Part shown: positions 16,825 to 63,089 of the stretch, piece by piece
Position numbering within the stretch: position 1 is the stretch's first letter
How the letters are laid out: each line of letters opens with the position of its first letter
Source of the DNA: Catellatospora bangladeshensis
GTDB lineage: Bacteria; Actinomycetota; Actinomycetes; Mycobacteriales; Micromonosporaceae
DNA: 64,000 nucleotides
Reading direction: 5' to 3'
Assembly (NCBI RefSeq): GCF_016862575.1
Contig: NZ_BONF01000038.1
Span: 62,001-126,000 of the forward strand
The notes under the pieces: model-generated
Databases searched by the model: none
Seen by the model: the letters and a program-made list of their open reading frames with translations, nothing else
Told to the model about the DNA's origin: nothing
Made by a program: the position numbers and the translations under genes

Positions 16825-16853
16825 CCTCCGCCGCGGGCTCGGCCCCGCAACTT

Positions 16854-16899
16854 CAGGGAAACTGCTGTCATCGGGTACGCCGAGACAGCAGTTTCCCTG
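16854..16899. terminator. Strong bidirectional terminator
   Basis: A perfect 16-bp stem (16854-16869 with 16884-16899) encloses a 14-base loop and is followed by a short T-rich run. It sits between the convergent GT87 and moaE genes. Confidence 0.9.
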
Positions 16900-19949: not shown

Positions 19950-22499
19950 GTGGCCGCCCAGACCGCACCCTCGCAGCAGACCGATCGGCAGCTCCGGCTG
20001 CTCGTCGGTCTAGTTGCGTTCGTGGCCCTCGGGGTCCTGGTCGCCGCCCTCGTCGGCGTGGCCTACACGGAGTTCGGCTCCGGCCTCGCGGTGCGGGTCG
20101 GCGCCCTGGCGCTGATCATCGCGATCGCCGGCGTGACCTACGTCCGCGTCCGGATCCGGTCCACCAACCACGACATCTCCTGGACCGACTCGGCGATGCT
20201 GGTCGCCGTGGTGATGCTGCCCCTGCCGTGGGCCGTGCTGGCCACCGCCGTGGCCGTCACCATCGCCAAGTCGATCCACAAGCTGCGCGGCATCAAGTTC
20301 GTCTTCGGCGTGGCCAAGGAGTCGATCACCTGCGGGATCGCCGGGCTGATCCTCACCGCCGCCGGGGGAGTCACCGACAAGCCGCTGGACAGCCTCGGCC
20401 CGCTGGCGCTCGCGTACGCCGGGCTCGTCCTGGCCGACGACCTGATCGCGATCCCGGTGCTCGCGCTGGCCACCGGCACCAGCGTCAAGGACCGGTTCCT
20501 CTCGAACCTCGACCTGACCTGGGGCTCGGCGTTCGTGCGCTTCGCCGTCGCGGTGCTCGCCCTGGCGGTGCTGGCCGAGGAGCCCGGCCTGCTGGTGGCG
20601 ATCCCGCTGATCGTGCTGAGCCTCCAGCTGACCTACCGCGGCAAGCTGCGCGCCCGCGCGGAGCGGCTGGCCTGGCAGCAGCTGGCCGAGGCGACCGACG
20701 CCATGAACGTGGTGCAGATGGAGACGGTGCTGCACACCGCGGTCCGCAACGGGGCGCGGCTGTTCTCCGCCGAGACGGTCGAGATCGACGTATCCCTGGA
20801 CGGCGCGCAGCAGCTGGTCCGCGGCACGCATCAGGAGATCACCTACCACGGCGCGCCCGACGAGGCCGCCGTGGACGCGCGCACCACGGCGGTCGTGCCG
20901 CTGATCGGTGAGCCGGACGGCGAGCGCGTCGGCGAGCTGCGGCTGTGCTTCCACGTGCCGGTCGCGCTGTCCGAGCGGGAGCAGTTCACGCTGCGGGCGT
21001 TCGCCGGGGCGCTGTGCACCGCGATCCGCAACGCGACGTCGTACGCCCAGCTGGAGCAGCTGGCCGGGCAGCATCAGCACGACGCCACCCACGACCTGCT
21101 CACCGGCCTGCCCAACCGGCGCCGGCTCCAGCTGGAGGCCGAGGACGCGCTCGACCGGCGGCAGCGCGGCCGGGGTGTCACCGCGCTGCTGGTGCTGGAC
21201 CTCAACCACTTCAAGGACGTCAACGACGCGCTCGGCCACACCGCCGGTGACCAGGTCCTCATCACCGTGGCCCGCCGCCTGGAAGCGGCCGCGGGGCCCG
21301 AGGCCCTGGTGACCCGGCTCGGCGGCGACGAGTTCGCGGTCCTCTACCGCGGCCTGCCCGCCCCCGCGCTGGCCCTGCACCGCGCGGAGAACCTGCTGTC
21401 CGTCCTGCACGAGCCGGTCGACGTCGACGGCATGCCACTGGTCGTCAGCGCGGGCGCGGGCGTGTCCGTCGCCCCGTCCCGGGGCGGCTTCGTCGAGCTG
21501 CTGCGCCGCGCCGACATCGCCATGTACCAGGCCAAGCGCACCGGCCGCGCGGTCGCGGTGTACGCCCGCGAGGACGACACCGCCGACCGCGGCCGCCTCG
21601 TCGTCGGCGGCATGCTGCCCCGCGCGGTCGCCGAGAAGGAGTTCACCCTCCAGTTCCAGCCCATCGTCGACCTCGCCGGGGGCGAGGTGATCGGCGCCGA
21701 GGCGCTGGCCCGCTGGCAGCACCCCGACAAGGGCATGGTCGACCCGCGCAGCTTCCTTGAACCCATCGAGCGCTCCGGGCTGCTCACCGCGTTCACCGAC
21801 GCGGTGCTCGACCAGGCGCTGGCCGGGGCCGCCCGCTGGCGCGAGCTGGGCTGCCGGTGGCCGGTCGCGGTCAACATCTCCCCGCGCAGCCTGCTCGACC
21901 GCCGCCTGCCCGCCCTGGTCACCCGCCGCCTGGACGACCACGGCCTGCCCGGCGACGCCCTGGTGCTGGAGCTGACCGAGTCGCACACCGTCAGCCAGCT
22001 GGACATCGTGGACAAGGTGCTGGCCGAGCTGATGGAGCTGGGCTGCGCGATCGCCCTCGACGACTTCGGCACCGGCTACTCCTCCCTGTCCGTGCTGCCC
22101 CGGGTGCCCGCCACCGAGCTGAAGATCGACCGCTCGTTCGTCATGCAGATGGAGAACACCCCCAGCTCCGCCGCGGTCGTCCGGTCCACCGTCGAGCTGG
22201 GCCGCCACCTCGACCTGCTCGTCGTCGCGGAGGGCGTGGAGCGCGACAGCCAGCGCCGCCTGCTGTGGGATCTGGGCTGCACGGCCGGGCAGGGGCACCT
22301 GTTCGCCAAGCCGATGCCGCTGGCCGAGATCCTCGACCTGGTCCGCGCGGGCGACGGCACGGTCCGGCTGGCCGAGCCGCTGCACGACCCCAAGGCCGTG
22401 GTGCGCCTGCCCGCCAAGCGCGGCTCCGGCCGCGGCGCCCGCCAGTCCGGGCCCACGGGTGCCGCCGGCGGCGGGCGGGTGTCAGACTCCACGGCGTGA
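19950..22499 (+). CDS. Membrane-anchored GGDEF-EAL cyclic-di-GMP enzyme
   Basis: An 849-residue signalling protein. The first ~230 residues hold about seven hydrophobic helices, an MASE-like sensor. A GAF-like region (about 245-370) follows. The GGDEF domain has an intact RLGGDEF near residue 456 and a substrate loop with DLNHFKDVND. The EAL domain has intact EALARWQHP near 583, NISPRSL, DDFGTGYSSL and AEGVE. Both synthesis and breakdown of cyclic-di-GMP look possible from the motifs, so the net activity cannot be told. The GTG start has AAGAGG six bases upstream. Its stop overlaps the next start as GTGA. Confidence 0.93.
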   Translation: MAAQTAPSQQTDRQLRLLVGLVAFVALGVLVAALVGVAYTEFGSGLAVRVGALALIIAIAGVTYVRVRIRSTNHDISWTDSAMLVAVVMLPLPWAVLATAVAVTIAKSIHKLRGIKFVFGVAKESITCGIAGLILTAAGGVTDKPLDSLGPLALAYAGLVLADDLIAIPVLALATGTSVKDRFLSNLDLTWGSAFVRFAVAVLALAVLAEEPGLLVAIPLIVLSLQLTYRGKLRARAERLAWQQLAEATDAMNVVQMETVLHTAVRNGARLFSAETVEIDVSLDGAQQLVRGTHQEITYHGAPDEAAVDARTTAVVPLIGEPDGERVGELRLCFHVPVALSEREQFTLRAFAGALCTAIRNATSYAQLEQLAGQHQHDATHDLLTGLPNRRRLQLEAEDALDRRQRGRGVTALLVLDLNHFKDVNDALGHTAGDQVLITVARRLEAAAGPEALVTRLGGDEFAVLYRGLPAPALALHRAENLLSVLHEPVDVDGMPLVVSAGAGVSVAPSRGGFVELLRRADIAMYQAKRTGRAVAVYAREDDTADRGRLVVGGMLPRAVAEKEFTLQFQPIVDLAGGEVIGAEALARWQHPDKGMVDPRSFLEPIERSGLLTAFTDAVLDQALAGAARWRELGCRWPVAVNISPRSLLDRRLPALVTRRLDDHGLPGDALVLELTESHTVSQLDIVDKVLAELMELGCAIALDDFGTGYSSLSVLPRVPATELKIDRSFVMQMENTPSSAAVVRSTVELGRHLDLLVVAEGVERDSQRRLLWDLGCTAGQGHLFAKPMPLAEILDLVRAGDGTVRLAEPLHDPKAVVRLPAKRGSGRGARQSGPTGAAGGGRVSDSTA

Positions 22500-23947
22500 G
22501 CCGACCCGCCGACACCACCCAGGACGCACCCTCGTCTGACGTGCCGCGCCCCGGTGCGGCCGGCCGGCTCTGGCGCCGCGTCGACGGCGCCGCGGGCGGC
22601 CTGGCCGCCGATCTCGGCCTGTACGCGCTGTCGGCCCTGTTCGCCTGGTCCACCGCGAGCGGCTCCACCCTCGCCTCGCACCGCGCCTGGGGCGCCGTCG
22701 CCGTCTGGGGCTACCTCGCCGCCACCGTCCTCACCCTGGCCCTCCTCGCCCTCCGTCTCCGCCCCGCCCCACCCCACCCCGCCCCACCCCACGCCGCCGC
22801 GCCCCGCGCCGCCCGCCAAGATCGTTCGACTTGCCTGGCACATGGGCGAAAGTGCGCGCAAGATACGCCCGATTGCCAGGCAAGTCGAACGATCACGGAC
22901 GGGTCCGGCGGGTCCGGCGGGGTCGGGGCCGTCGCCGGGGTGGCCGGCCGGGCGTGGACGACCGCGGGGGTATGGGTCGCGGTGGCGGTGGTGCCGCTGG
23001 TCGTGCAGGCGGTGCAGCGGGCCGGCGGGGCGCTCGGGCGGGCGCAGGAGGAGGTGCTCGTCGTCGAGGAGTCGGCGCGGCGGCTGCTCGACTCCGGCAC
23101 GCCGTACCTCGGGCGCGACGGGATCGCCGCGCTGCCGGAGCCGCTGCTCGGGTACACGCCGTACCAGCCGGGCATGGCGGTGTTCGGGCTGCCCCGGGCG
23201 TTGTTCGGCACGGCCTGGTGGACCGACGCGCGAGTGTGGTTCGCGATGGCGACCGCCGCGGCCCTGCTGCTCGCCGCGCGGCTCCTGCGCGACGGCACCC
23301 CGTCCCGCGACGCGCTGCTGGTACGCGCCGTGCAGGCCGCCACCGTGCTGCCGCTGTGCGCGCTCACCCTCGCCACCGGCGGCGACGACCTGCCCGTGCT
23401 CGCGCTGTGCCTGCTCGCCTTCGCGCTCGCCGCGCGCGCCCGCTTCGGCTGGTCCGGGATCGCCATGGGCGCCGCCGCCGCGATGAAGCTGCTGGCCTGG
23501 CCGGTCGCGCTGGTCCTCGGGGCGTACGCCGTGGTCCGCCGCTCCGGCGGCCGTTACGCCGCGGGCGCCGCCGGGCTGCCCGTGCTGGCCCTGATCCCGG
23601 CCCTGCTGGCGGACAGCGCCGCGTTCGTGGAGAACGTGATCCGCTTCCCGACCGGCCACGGCCTGGTCACCAGCCCCGCCGCCTCACCGCTGCTCGGCTG
23701 GCTGATCGCCCGGCACGTGCCCGGCGGGCGCACCGTTGCGCTGCTCCTGCTGCTGCTCGCGGGCCTGGCCATCGGCCTCTGGCTGCTGCGCCGCCCGCCC
23801 CACGACGCCGGCGCCGCCGCCCTCATCAGCGCCACCGGCCTGCTCACCGCCATCGTCCTCATGCCCTCCACCCGCTTCGGCTACCTCCTCTACCCGGTGG
23901 CCTTCGCCCTCTGGGCCCTCCCCCTCCGCCCACCCCCTCCGCGTTGA
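22496..23947 (+). CDS. GT87-like membrane protein interrupted in frame by a palindromic element
   Basis: A 483-residue polytopic protein, probably GT-C/DUF2029-like. It has two helices at about residues 40-95, then a low-complexity linker, then about eight helices with LLGYTPYQPGMAVFGLPRAL and a final FGYLLYPVAFALWALP. Residues about 105-136 are encoded by the 84-base palindromic repeat, giving an odd Cys-rich stretch (DRSTCLAHGRKCAQ...) in the linker. The frame stays open through the repeat. Just before it, a run of CCCCA/CCCCG units encodes HPAPPH-type residues. The GTG start overlaps the upstream GGDEF-EAL stop. Function is unknown; a role in envelope glycosylation is inference. Confidence 0.75.
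   Translation: MSRPADTTQDAPSSDVPRPGAAGRLWRRVDGAAGGLAADLGLYALSALFAWSTASGSTLASHRAWGAVAVWGYLAATVLTLALLALRLRPAPPHPAPPHAAAPRAARQDRSTCLAHGRKCAQDTPDCQASRTITDGSGGSGGVGAVAGVAGRAWTTAGVWVAVAVVPLVVQAVQRAGGALGRAQEEVLVVEESARRLLDSGTPYLGRDGIAALPEPLLGYTPYQPGMAVFGLPRALFGTAWWTDARVWFAMATAAALLLAARLLRDGTPSRDALLVRAVQAATVLPLCALTLATGGDDLPVLALCLLAFALAARARFGWSGIAMGAAAAMKLLAWPVALVLGAYAVVRRSGGRYAAGAAGLPVLALIPALLADSAAFVENVIRFPTGHGLVTSPAASPLLGWLIARHVPGGRTVALLLLLLAGLAIGLWLLRRPPHDAGAAALISATGLLTAIVLMPSTRFGYLLYPVAFALWALPLRPPPPR
22762..22790 (+). repeat. C-run low-complexity tract
   Basis: Six CCCC runs separated by single A or G bases, inside the coding sequence and just upstream of the palindromic element. The complementary strand has G-quadruplex potential. 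Confidence 0.7.
22810..22903 (+). repeat. Family-1 palindromic element, copy A (inside a gene)
   Basis: A dispersed inverted repeat. The arms 22820-22840 and 22874-22894 are a perfect 21-bp match and continue outward and inward with a few mismatches. The 84-base core (from CGCCCGCCAAGATC through the second GATC) aligns without gaps to copy B at 46943-47037, with about 72 of 84 positions the same by hand count. All three forward frames through it are open. It sits in the linker of the GT87-like gene. Confidence 0.85.
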
Positions 23948-24021
23948 TCATGAACTTATGGACGTGTTCGACGGCGTGTCACCACCCTGCCACCGTGATC
24001 ACCGCAGCACGCCGCGCCGAC

Positions 24022-24111
24022 CGCGCGGGCCGGACGAGCCGCGCGGGCCGGACGAGCCGCGCGGGCCGGACGAACCGCGCGGGCCGGACGAACCGCGCGG
24101 GCCGGGCGAGG
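24022..24111. repeat. Five tandem 18-bp repeats
   Basis: Five consecutive units of CGCGCGGGCCGGACGARC, the last one diverged, fill most of the gap between the GT87-like gene and crcB. The gap 23948-24195 holds no other supported feature. Confidence 0.85.
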
Positions 24112-29293: not shown

Positions 29294-29312
29294 CAAGATC
29301 ACGTCGATCTTG
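29294..29312 (+). terminator. Short hairpin after the VWA lipoprotein gene
   Basis: CAAGATC-ACGTC-GATCTTG forms a 7-bp stem 22 bases after the stop. The CCAAGATC word also begins the family-1 element, so it may be a degenerate relative. Confidence 0.45.
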
Positions 29313-29378
29313 CACGAAGTGTTAGGGATTTGACCGGTTCGCCCGTGTCGCACCCACAGTTCGCGCAAGATCGGCGCG

Positions 29379-45538: not shown

Positions 45539-46933
45539 GTGCCCCACCCCGTGATCCCGAACGCGACCGAGAGCCGGCGGGTCGCCGCCACCTCCCGCGC
45601 GATCCTGGCCGGCGCGCCCTTCCGGCGCCTGCTCGGGGTGCGGCTCACCAGCCAGATCGCCGACGGCTGGTTCCAGGCCGGCCTGGCCGGGTCGCTGCTG
45701 TTCAACCCCGACCGCCAGTCCAGCCCGGTCGCCATCGCCGCCGGGTTCGCCATCCTGCTGCTGCCGTACTCGCTGATGGGGCCGTACGTCGGCGTGCTGC
45801 TGGACCGCTGGGACCGGCGGGCGTCGCTGTCCACCGCCAACCTGGCGCGCGCCGCGATGGTGCTGCCCGCGGCCGCGCTGCTGTGGTCCGGCCTGCAAGG
45901 GCTCGGGTTCGCGGTGTGCGCCCTGATCGTCATCGCGATCAACCGGTTCTTCCTGGCGGGCCTGTCCGCGTCGCTGCCGCACGTGGTCGAGGAGCGCAAG
46001 CTGGTCCCCGCGAACGCGCTCGCGTCCACGCTCGGCACCATCTGCTACTCGATCGGCCTGTTCACCGCCGCGTCGGTGGTCGCGCTGCAGCTGGTCGGCA
46101 CCGACCGGCACGGGTACGGCCTCATCGCCGCCACCGCCGCCCTGGGCTACCTCGCCTCCGGCCTGCTGGCCCGGCGCTTCTTCCGGCGCGACGAGCTGGG
46201 CCCCGACGCGCACGAGCGGGCCACCGACAGCATCCGGGCGGCCGTGGTCGTGGTGTTCCGGGGCATGGTCAGCGGCGCACGCCACCTCGCCTCACGCGGC
46301 AAGGCCGCCCGGATCATGATCCTGCAGTCGGCGTACCGCTTCCTCTACGGCGTGCTCACGCTCGCCGTGCTCCTGCTCTACAGCCGTTACTTCGGCAAGG
46401 CCGCCGAGCGGACCGCGACGGAGCTGTCCGGCGCGGCCCAGTCGATGGGGCAGCTGGGGCTCGTGGTCCTGTTCGGGGCGGCGGGCGCCGCGGTGGCCGC
46501 GGTGCTCACCCCGCTCGCGGTGCGCTGGTGGGACGCCCGCCGCTGGCTGACCGGCTCGGTCGCCGCCGTCGGCGTCGTGGTGCTGGTCTGCGGGCTGCCG
46601 TTCGTCGCGCCGCTGCTGCTGGTCGCGGTGTTCCTGGTGAACGTCGCCTCGCAGAGCATGAAGATCCTGGTCGACGCGACCATCCAGCACGAGTGCGCGG
46701 ACGTCTACCGGGGGCGGGTGTTCAGCGTCAACGACACCGCGTTCAACCTGTGCTTCGTGGGCGGCCTGTTCACGGCCGCGCTCACCCTGCCCGGCAACGG
46801 CAAGTCCGCGATCGCCCTGGTGATCACCTCGACGGCCTTCGTCCTGCTGGCCGCCTGGTACTGGACCACCACCGCCCGCCTGGCCACCACCCCGCCCGAC
46901 CCGGACGCCACCCCCACCGTCTACAAGTCCTGA
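45539..46933 (+). CDS. Major facilitator superfamily transporter
   Basis: A 464-residue protein with about 12 membrane helices. The DRWDRR motif in GVLLDRWDRRASL is the MFS loop 2-3 signature. The order of helices and the length resemble the EntS/MFS_3-type exporters. The substrate is unknown. It begins 38 bases after the flotillin terminator and probably has its own promoter; GTG 45539 is the start. Confidence 0.88.
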   Translation: MPHPVIPNATESRRVAATSRAILAGAPFRRLLGVRLTSQIADGWFQAGLAGSLLFNPDRQSSPVAIAAGFAILLLPYSLMGPYVGVLLDRWDRRASLSTANLARAAMVLPAAALLWSGLQGLGFAVCALIVIAINRFFLAGLSASLPHVVEERKLVPANALASTLGTICYSIGLFTAASVVALQLVGTDRHGYGLIAATAALGYLASGLLARRFFRRDELGPDAHERATDSIRAAVVVVFRGMVSGARHLASRGKAARIMILQSAYRFLYGVLTLAVLLLYSRYFGKAAERTATELSGAAQSMGQLGLVVLFGAAGAAVAAVLTPLAVRWWDARRWLTGSVAAVGVVVLVCGLPFVAPLLLVAVFLVNVASQSMKILVDATIQHECADVYRGRVFSVNDTAFNLCFVGGLFTAALTLPGNGKSAIALVITSTAFVLLAAWYWTTTARLATTPPDPDATPTVYKS

Positions 46934-46942
46934 CCCGCCGCG

Positions 46943-47037
46943 CGCCCGCCAAGATCACTCGACTTGCCAGGCACTTGGGCGTATGCGGCCGCAAGATACG
47001 CCCGAGTGCCAGGCAAGTTGGACGATCTTGACGGGCG
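46943..47037. repeat. Family-1 palindromic element, copy B (intergenic)
   Basis: A 95-base inverted repeat: 41-base arms (46943-46983 and 46997-47037) with about seven mismatches and a 13-base spacer. It lies in the convergent gap between the MFS and CCA nucleotidyltransferase genes, where it could also act as a terminator. It matches copy A inside the GT87-like gene at 22810-22903. Confidence 0.9.
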
Positions 47038-47082: not shown

Positions 47083-48525
47083 TCAGGGGAGGAGGCCCTC
47101 GGCGCGGGCCCAGCGCTGGAGTTCGGCCTCGGCCTCGTCGCGGTCGAGGGGGCCGCGTTCCAGGCGCAGCTCCTTGAGGTGCTTCCAGGCGCGGCCGACG
47201 ACGGGGCCGGCGGGGACGCCGAGCAGCTCCATGATCGCGTTGCCGTCGAGGTCGGGGCGCACCCGGGCCAGGTCCTCCTCGGCCTGGATGCGGGTGATGC
47301 GCTGCTCCAGCGCGTCGTAGTCGGCGGCGAGCAGCGCCGCCTTGCGCTTGTTGCGGGTGGTGCAGTCGGAACGGGTGAGCTTGTGGAGGCGGGCGAGCTG
47401 GTCGCCTGCGTCGGTGACGTACCGCCGCACGGCCGAGTCGGTCCACTCGCCCCGGCCGTACCCGTAGAAGCGCAGGTGCAGCCCCACCAGCGCGACGACG
47501 GGCCCGATCACGTCCTTGGGGTACTTCAGCGCCTTGAGCCGGGTCTTGGCCATGCGGGCGCCGACCATCTCGTGATGGTGGAAGCTGACCCCGCCGTCGG
47601 CGCCGACCGCCTTGGTGGCCGGCTTGCCGATGTCGTGCAGCAGCGCGGCCAGGCGCAGGACCAGGTCGGGGCCGCCGTCGGCGGTGTCGTACCCGGCGGC
47701 GTTGCTGACCACCTTGAGGGTGTGCTCGTACACGTCCTTGTGCTGGGCGTGCTCGTCGATCTCCAGCTTCAGCCCGGCCAGCTCGGGCAGGAAGCGGTCG
47801 GCCAGGCCGGTGTCGACCAGCAGCCGCAGCCCGGTCACCGGGTCGGCGCCGAGCAGCAGTTTGGAGACCTCGTCGCGGATCCGCTCGGCAGTGATCCGGT
47901 CCAGGTCGGCGGCCATGTGCTCCATCGCCGTACGCACCGCGGGGTCGAGGTCGAAGCGCAGCTGCGCGGCGAACCGGGCGGCGCGCAGCATGCGCAGCGG
48001 GTCGTCGCCGAACGACTGCGCCGGGGTGCCCGGCGTCCGGATCACCCGCGCGGCCAGGTCCTGCAGCCCGCCGAACGGGTCGGCGAACTCGTGGCCGGGC
48101 AGGCTGACCGCCATCGCGTTGATCGTGAAGTCGCGCCGGACGAGGTCGTCGTGCAGGTTGTCGCCGTACTGCACGAGCGGGTTGCGGCTGACGCCGTCGT
48201 ACGACTCCGCCCGGTAGGTGGTGATCTCCAGCCGGAGCCCGCCGCGCTGCAGCCCGATGGTGCCGAACTCGCGTCCCGTCTCCCAGGTCGCCTCGGCCCA
48301 GCCCTTGATGATCTTCAGGGTGTCCTCGGGACGGGCGTCGGTGCAGAAGTCGAGGTCGTCGCCGAGCCGGCCGAGCAGCGCGTCCCGGACGGACCCGCCG
48401 ACGAGGTGCAGCTCGTAGCCGGCCTTGGCGAAGCGGCGGCCCAGTTCGTCGGCGACGGGTGAGACGCGCAACAGCTCGGTGACGGCGTTGCGCTGGGCGG
48501 CGGAGAGTTCAGGTGAGGGCGACAT
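47083..48525 (-). CDS. pcnA: CCA tRNA nucleotidyltransferase
   Basis: A 480-residue class II nucleotidyltransferase that adds or repairs CCA at tRNA 3' ends. Motifs: LVGGSVRDALLG, DDLDFCTDA, RRDFTINAMAVSL, DPLRMLRAARFAAQL, and an HD domain (EHTLKVV, LHDIGKPATKAVG). The HD-containing form and this position beside murJ match the M. tuberculosis PcnA (Rv3907c). Confidence 0.94.
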   Translation of the reverse strand: MSPSPELSAAQRNAVTELLRVSPVADELGRRFAKAGYELHLVGGSVRDALLGRLGDDLDFCTDARPEDTLKIIKGWAEATWETGREFGTIGLQRGGLRLEITTYRAESYDGVSRNPLVQYGDNLHDDLVRRDFTINAMAVSLPGHEFADPFGGLQDLAARVIRTPGTPAQSFGDDPLRMLRAARFAAQLRFDLDPAVRTAMEHMAADLDRITAERIRDEVSKLLLGADPVTGLRLLVDTGLADRFLPELAGLKLEIDEHAQHKDVYEHTLKVVSNAAGYDTADGGPDLVLRLAALLHDIGKPATKAVGADGGVSFHHHEMVGARMAKTRLKALKYPKDVIGPVVALVGLHLRFYGYGRGEWTDSAVRRYVTDAGDQLARLHKLTRSDCTTRNKRKAALLAADYDALEQRITRIQAEEDLARVRPDLDGNAIMELLGVPAGPVVGRAWKHLKELRLERGPLDRDEAEAELQRWARAEGLLP

Positions 48526-50380: not shown

Positions 50381-50445
50381 ATGATCAGTGTTTCGTGCCG
50401 GAAGACGTGGTCTGGCCTCACGTTCCGACACGAAACGCCGATCAT
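50381..50445. repeat. Family-2 palindromic element, copy A
   Basis: 22-base arms (50381-50402 and 50424-50445) with three mismatches, all G-U-compatible. It shares sequence with the palindrome at 63023-63089. Confidence 0.75.
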
Positions 50446-50490: not shown

Positions 50491-50541
50491 GTTAAGAAGG
50501 TGCCCTTCCTCTACGGATAGCGTTAAGAAGGTGCCCTTCCT
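50491..50541. repeat. Two direct repeats containing AAGGTGCCCTT
   Basis: GTTAAGAAGGTGCCCTTCCT occurs at 50491-50510 and again at 50522-50541, a 31-base period. The centre is near-palindromic. From memory such units are frequent in Micromonosporaceae intergenic DNA. Confidence 0.8.
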
Positions 50542-50574
50542 TGCGTCGGTCAGCGGCGGCGGGTGCCACCCGGG

Positions 50575-63022: not shown

Positions 63023-63089
63023 GAAGATCGCTAGTTCGTGTCGAGATCTGCGGTCAGACTGCACTTTCTGACACGAGACCGCGACCTTC
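63023..63089. repeat. Family-2 palindromic element, copy B
   Basis: 20-base arms (63023-63042 and 63070-63089) with five mismatches. It aligns with the murJ-downstream palindrome at 50381-50445, especially TTCGTG and GACACGA. Confidence 0.6.

Follow-up and report, generated by a model that had tools for sequence, protein, structure and literature searches.

The locus raises the question of why a palindromic repeat should lie in frame within a membrane glycosyltransferase-like gene. The window analysed here is the whole 64,000-nucleotide stretch of DNA at G000:C38:62001-126000 (strand +), G000 being a Catellatospora draft genome of 8.83 Mb in 115 contigs; Catellatospora also provides the nearest named relatives of the GT87-like protein encoded in the window. 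The gene for this GT87-family membrane glycosyltransferase-like protein occupies 22496..23947 (+) when read from an inferred GTG start that overlaps the upstream stop codon, while our own gene caller placed its start at 22541. The 482-aa translation matched Pfam GT87 over residues 220-456 (E 4.7e-18). The in-gene palindrome, which we termed F1, has conserved borders at 22816..22898 (+, 83 bp, CCAAGATC...GATCACGG), and its GATC...GATC core (22820-22894) amounts to 25 codons read in frame, codons 109-133 from the inferred GTG. A second copy (46949..47031, +, 83 bp) lies between two convergent genes that our gene caller placed at 45539-46933 and 47083-48525. The original prediction had described a palindrome at two sites of the window, with a gapless 84-base core and about 72 identical bases; both sites are real and the repeat is gapless, but it measures 83 bp and 68/83 bases are identical. 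All three forward frames are open at the in-gene copy, as had been claimed and as can be seen directly. On folding as single-stranded DNA, the two copies returned z-scores of -7.8 and -9.3, and 0/200 dinucleotide shuffles folded as well. An Rfam search of the window at gathering scores returned 0 matches; two sub-threshold matches were recorded (L041 and L304), and of these mir-2766 (E 0.24) overlaps an F1 element; a known RNA family was rejected as an explanation of F1 on these grounds.

Further copies, for which a genome search had been suggested, are numerous: among the best 150 candidates scored (150 rows), F1 occupies at least 136 distinct places in G000. The examined set comprises 126 copies, 125 of which are among the 136 listed places, the other 11 listed places being left out. 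As each genome scan scored the best 150 candidates and listed both strands of the palindrome, row counts differ from copy numbers. Nine copies in C8:73801-473780 of G000 scale to about 200 per genome, and six in 400 kb of its closest relative, G007, sampled as 20 windows at even spacing, scale to about 130. The 83-bp alignment is gapless for 125/126 copies (one was dropped), with information at background beyond the borders.

F1 was detected in 11/11 genomes of the genus. Outside the genus, a BLAST search matched 0/30 genomes, and a covariance model run on 150 genomes of the family matched 13, namely the 11 genus genomes and two weak others, one of which belongs to the BLAST-negative 30. These two other-genus genomes (G011 and G044) gave one and four weak matches, respectively (best E 2.4e-9 and 6.7e-9), possibly representing distant relatives of F1. 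Core identity between paralogues (46 copies) has a median of 0.87, with a single pair above 0.95, and recent amplification was rejected on that account. Searches of plasmids and phages returned no match at E 1e-5 and viral contigs contained no exact match to the pattern, so carriage by phage, plasmid or virus was likewise rejected. We recognised no title describing F1 in the open-licence PMC literature, a weak negative.

The placement of F1 relative to genes points to gene ends. Using our own codon-score gene caller rather than a standard annotation, we assigned the 126 copies to convergent (55), tandem (59) and divergent (8) spacers, with three in genes and one at the edge of a fragment; in a sample of 400 kb, neighbouring genes formed convergent, tandem and divergent pairs in the ratio 61:215:62, or 35:95:56 for spacers of 80 bp or more. 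The upstream 3′ end was the nearer one for 49/59 tandem copies, at a median distance of 28 bp. Orientation relative to the tandem genes was close to even (32 same, 27 opposite), making a role in the RNA of one strand less likely. The in-frame GT87 copy is thus a rare by-product of a large, conserved set of gene-end palindromes: the object singled out by the original prediction is real and unusual, but its broader significance is to be sought beyond this gene.

We favour, with a probability of roughly 0.48, the reading that F1 is a REP/BIME-like, dyad-symmetric 83-bp site whose double-stranded sequence is selected, situated mainly just 3′ of genes, especially where two genes converge. It draws on the copy number, the fixed length, the gene-end placement and, as detailed below, on stability between close species, position-specific constraint, constraint at the DNA level in two genes and arms that do not covary. 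The copies are best read as sequence-specific, orientation-indifferent, long-resident gene-end sites that are seldom caught in genes. A host DNA-binding protein or topoisomerase would most likely recognise them, and recognition may take place where converging transcription accumulates positive supercoils, in a gyrase-like or nucleoid-protein role; the BIMEs of Escherichia coli are linked with gyrase. The GT87 copy would have landed in frame long ago, in a linker that tolerates it, the gene bearing about 25 odd residues with the DNA site probably preserved. If the constraint is indeed on double-stranded DNA, F1 would represent genome-wide protein sites at points of transcription convergence in one actinobacterial genus.

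Sites embedded in genes provide an internal test, as codon analysis can separate selection on DNA from selection on a peptide. The GT87-like gene is present in 11/11 genus genomes; in agreement with the comparison of orthologues proposed for this locus, the F1 segment is found in six of them (G000, G007, G003, G005, G006 and G010) and missing in five, so that what lies in frame in the linker, as predicted, is a dispersed repeat that other orthologues do not have. Among named loci around GT87-like genes, F1 was present in 4/80, all Catellatospora, suggesting that gain is likelier than loss. An NRPS-like gene provides the second internal case (L012 4062-4155; L304-L311), with F1 in the linker between what we take, from their motifs, to be adenylation and carrier domains. 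At this locus, F1 is present in 8/8 matched genomes (8/11 of the genus, matched at E 1e-100), in the same frame as in the GT87-like gene and with no empty site. The third in-gene copy (L003 4045-4138) forms the last C-terminal residues of a presumably MMPL transporter-like protein, recognised by eye, with a stop codon within a few codons after it. In Catellatospora sp. KI3 (L117 3111-3157), the GT87-like gene carries in frame a member of another palindrome family, F3 (see below), at a site other than that of F1, indicating that members of two families have inserted into this gene, each in a different species.

In both internal genes, the element differs from its host gene in where changes fall. 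At four-fold sites, pairwise differences amounted to 38/242 in the element versus 1851/7413 in the rest of the NRPS-like gene (8 genomes), and to 9/112 versus 1065/4086 for the GT87-like gene (6 genomes). At codon positions 1 and 2, the order is reversed (NRPS, 162/1400 versus 2346/24498; GT87, 114/750 versus 1256/12458). All these counts are sums over genome pairs, so that events are non-independent, and the rest of the gene excludes a margin of 25 codons on each side of the element, narrowed to 15 on one side in GT87. Elsewhere in these genes, four-fold divergence drops to 0.095 (NRPS) and 0.07 (GT87) in some 25-codon windows; hence, neither gene is decisive alone and the joint pattern carries the argument. 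Since four-fold sites change less and positions 1 and 2 change more within the element, selection in both genes seems, from these sequence comparisons, to act on the spelling of the DNA and not on the peptide. The low synonymous change could also reflect gene conversion among copies, as the family-wide position difference described below would allow.

Position-specific constraint was also seen between the two closest genomes. In eight orthologous F1 pairs of G000 and G007, differences numbered 4/376 at invariant, 9/111 at middle and 15/110 at variable positions, these classes having been defined from 46 copies that include some elements of the eight tested pairs; at four-fold codon sites, 5407/56864 differ (9.5%). 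With the tested pair excluded from the class definition (four pairs matched), the counts were 3/168, 9/64 and 2/68, respectively, so the invariant class is still low and the variable class is no longer prominent. Divergence over the whole of F1 is moderate (42/689): it is lower than in the near flanks (41/445) but no lower than in the farther, mostly coding flank (44/905). Across 46 copies, the arms showed no covariation beyond that of shuffles (0.077 versus 0.077; pairing 83.9% versus 83.5%), and a covariation-backed RNA hairpin was therefore rejected. With 84% of arm cells paired, F1 might nevertheless act as a hairpin. The unpaired loop includes CAAGAT, which is 95-100% conserved.

The copies within a genome also appear to have changed in step. 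Element position 53 (counted from 0) is C in 117/125 copies of G000 and in 16/17 rows of G007, which include the GT87 copy twice. In other genomes of the genus it is A in 15/16 copies, among them every orthologous copy in GT87 (4) and NRPS (6); ten of these 16 come from the GT87 and NRPS loci and six from G002, of which five have A. Position 71 has shifted in a comparable but less complete way (G in 116/125 copies of G000, C in 11/16 others). Either the copies convert each other or they track a shared factor; variation persists at other positions, which counts against wholesale conversion.

F1 shares its niche with other palindromes. An all-against-all comparison of spacers revealed further families of F1-like layout, F2-F8, giving at least eight with F1. 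Within the window, an F2 palindrome lies at the 3′ end of the GT87-like gene (23944..24008, +, nhmmer E 2.2e-17). Palindromes between convergent genes belong to F6 (16852..16897, +, E 1.1e-5), F5 (29306..29372, +, E 4.7e-20) and F4 (50384..50443, +, E 2.7e-10; 63026..63084, -, E 6e-14, all nhmmer), and the first of the two F4 copies shares its spacer with an F3 palindrome (50504..50542, -, nhmmer E 2.9e-12). After the F2 palindrome, 3′ of the GT87-like gene, a short GC-rich unit (about ccgcgcgggccggacga) is repeated in tandem at 24020-24110. Counts in region A were 9 for F1, 9 for F2, 18 for F3, 17 for F4, 12 for F5, 9 for F6 and 3 for F7, and F8 had six occurrences in the G002 region and two in the windows of G007. 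Strong inverted repeats (score 15 or more, spacers of 30-600 bp, shuffles giving 0) occur in 67% of the 48 convergent spacers of G000, 17% of its 137 tandem spacers and 2% of its 58 divergent spacers, and in 51% of 41, 12% of 138 and 5% of 57, respectively, of G002.

We then compared convergent slots between genomes, scoring a slot as the same when its whole label was equal and as different even where one family was common. Between G000 and G007 (52 slots), 25 were the same, two different, three occupied in one genome only and 22 in neither; between G000 and G002 (37 slots), the corresponding counts were three the same, seven different, 11 occupied in G000 only, three in G002 only and 13 in neither. 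The contrast between invariant and variable positions of G000/G007 pairs recurs in F2 (6/169 versus 26/134), F3 (5/338 versus 34/88), F4 (2/162 versus 46/156) and F6 (2/152 versus 21/131), with opposite-orientation pairs set aside for F4 (4/11) and F6 (1/7); F5, represented by two pairs, shows no contrast (3/84 versus 0/22). At the six sites viewed where G000 and G007 differ in these other families, the spacer changes lack clean element borders. Along G007:C1, 25 windows (20 kb each) on the arc from 4.85 to 6.75 Mb contain 13 palindrome members, versus 55 in 15 windows elsewhere, and 12 versus 49 without F1; this arc of approximately 2 Mb was picked after viewing F1 positions, and for F2-F8 it is an independent observation. 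Convergent gene pairs are equally common in both sets (79 in the 25 arc windows and 38 in the 15 others), and one window outside the sparse arc, at 7.08 Mb, also has no palindrome members. A genome-wide punctuation code could be imagined, in which at least eight site families unrelated in sequence share one set of gene-end slots, replace one another from species to species, thin out in the 2-Mb arc and change in step, as though each had its own co-evolving DNA-binding protein; we consider this extended scheme unlikely. The family-wide base shift and the exchange of families within a slot make the joint evolution of short repeats addressable in a system with no visible transposase.

The same gene-end data bear on an RNA-level alternative, that F1, lying between convergent genes, acts as a bidirectional terminator or stabiliser of mRNA 3′ ends, its RNA forming a hairpin whichever way it is transcribed. 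F1 resembles intrinsic bidirectional terminators in forming a hairpin between convergent genes, and its strong folding, its 3′-end placement, the concentration of inverted repeats in convergent spacers of G000 and G002 and the occupation of one slot by different families across species would all be expected of such elements. Unlike intrinsic terminators, however, F1 has a T-rich tract after the arm in just 2/125 copies on either strand, and its arms do not covary; several stem positions are unpaired in at least half of the 46 copies while the loop is nearly fixed. The absence of indels from 125/126 copies imposes a tighter spacing than a hairpin loop needs, and in the two long open genes that contain a copy, termination would cut the product short. 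We therefore regard a terminator or stabiliser as somewhat unlikely. That F1 is instead a non-autonomous mobile repeat (MITE- or REPIN-like) that spread in the past and has no host function, its gene-end bias arising because insertion elsewhere is harmful, is distinctly unlikely in our view. Its patchy in-frame occurrence among GT87 orthologues, the restriction to Catellatospora among the 80 named loci, pointing to gain, the sharp borders and the very existence of a family, which requires some spread, are all consistent with such a past. In REPINs, an asymmetric centre is flanked by two inverted arms, and F1 shares this anatomy and the many copies. Against mobility, target-site duplications were not above chance (best 7 observed versus 1.8 expected over 2312 border/length combinations in 125 copies), and a transposon with target duplications was rejected for want of any signal in these copies. 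Y1 transposase (PF01797) matches were found in 6/11 genus genomes and were absent (0) from G000 and four other F1-carrying genus genomes, which sets F1 apart from REPIN/RAYT systems and led us to reject a RAYT-driven REPIN for G000. In 400 kb each of G000 and G007, we found full copies and one shared half-element with no intermediate decay, 8/8 comparable copies were common to both genomes and no F1 insertion polymorphism was seen in about 400 kb; paralogues are, moreover, rarely near-identical. A lone right half of F1 is present in a divergent spacer of both genomes (L151 near 3964; G000:C8 at about 337.8 kb), where G002 has a full copy; it is the one fossil seen.

The original prediction had envisaged a mobile repeat under selection for readability in any frame. 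Overall this is supported in part: a dispersed repeat it is, but the comparisons above gave no sign of current mobility, and selection for any-frame reading is a poor fit because F1 is mostly non-coding, in-gene copies being exceptional (3/126, one merely a C-terminal tail), and because those copies conserve DNA over peptide. In its favour, all three forward frames are open in 32/126 copies versus 10.7 expected from approximate dinucleotide shuffles, the copies being non-independent. A related proposal, made for the RPE of Rickettsia, is innovation at the protein level, in which the inserted peptide is itself useful. F1 is like RPE in layout, as an in-frame palindrome in genes that adds about 25-30 residues, and the two internal insertions use the same one of six frames, with Cys, Gln and a QDT motif recurring in both genes and several species. 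These recurring residues are largely encoded by conserved F1 DNA positions, however, and the codon pattern within the element, with positions 1 and 2 more variable and four-fold sites less so, is the reverse of that expected under peptide selection. Unlike RPE, F1 is rarely in genes (3/126 copies, two of them internal) and its DNA rather than its peptide is apparently constrained, leaving a useful peptide highly improbable.

Returning to the favoured reading of F1 as a selected double-stranded gene-end site, F1 lacks tested defining features of the GTAG/CGTC REPs, REPINs, MITEs and terminators, which places it as REP-like but outside those families. According to excerpts of PMC3733652, REPs are found preferentially 3′ of coding regions, in spacers between convergent or unidirectional genes; some lie in genes, and one genome may hold several REP families. 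Similarly, F1 is a many-copy palindrome that prefers convergent and tandem spacers 3′ of genes, with some copies in genes. The statement that palindromes within proteins are known from Rickettsia needs widening accordingly, as REPs in genes of several species are described in the same excerpts. F1 departs from REPs in its fixed length of 83 bp, compared with units of 20-40 bp, and in sharing its niche with several sequence-unrelated families, though multi-family genomes do figure in the excerpted text of PMC3733652. In relation to the GTAG/CGTC REP superfamilies as given there, GTAG occurs near the ends of F1 in 0/125 copies, and CGTC lies within the end stretches in 22/125.
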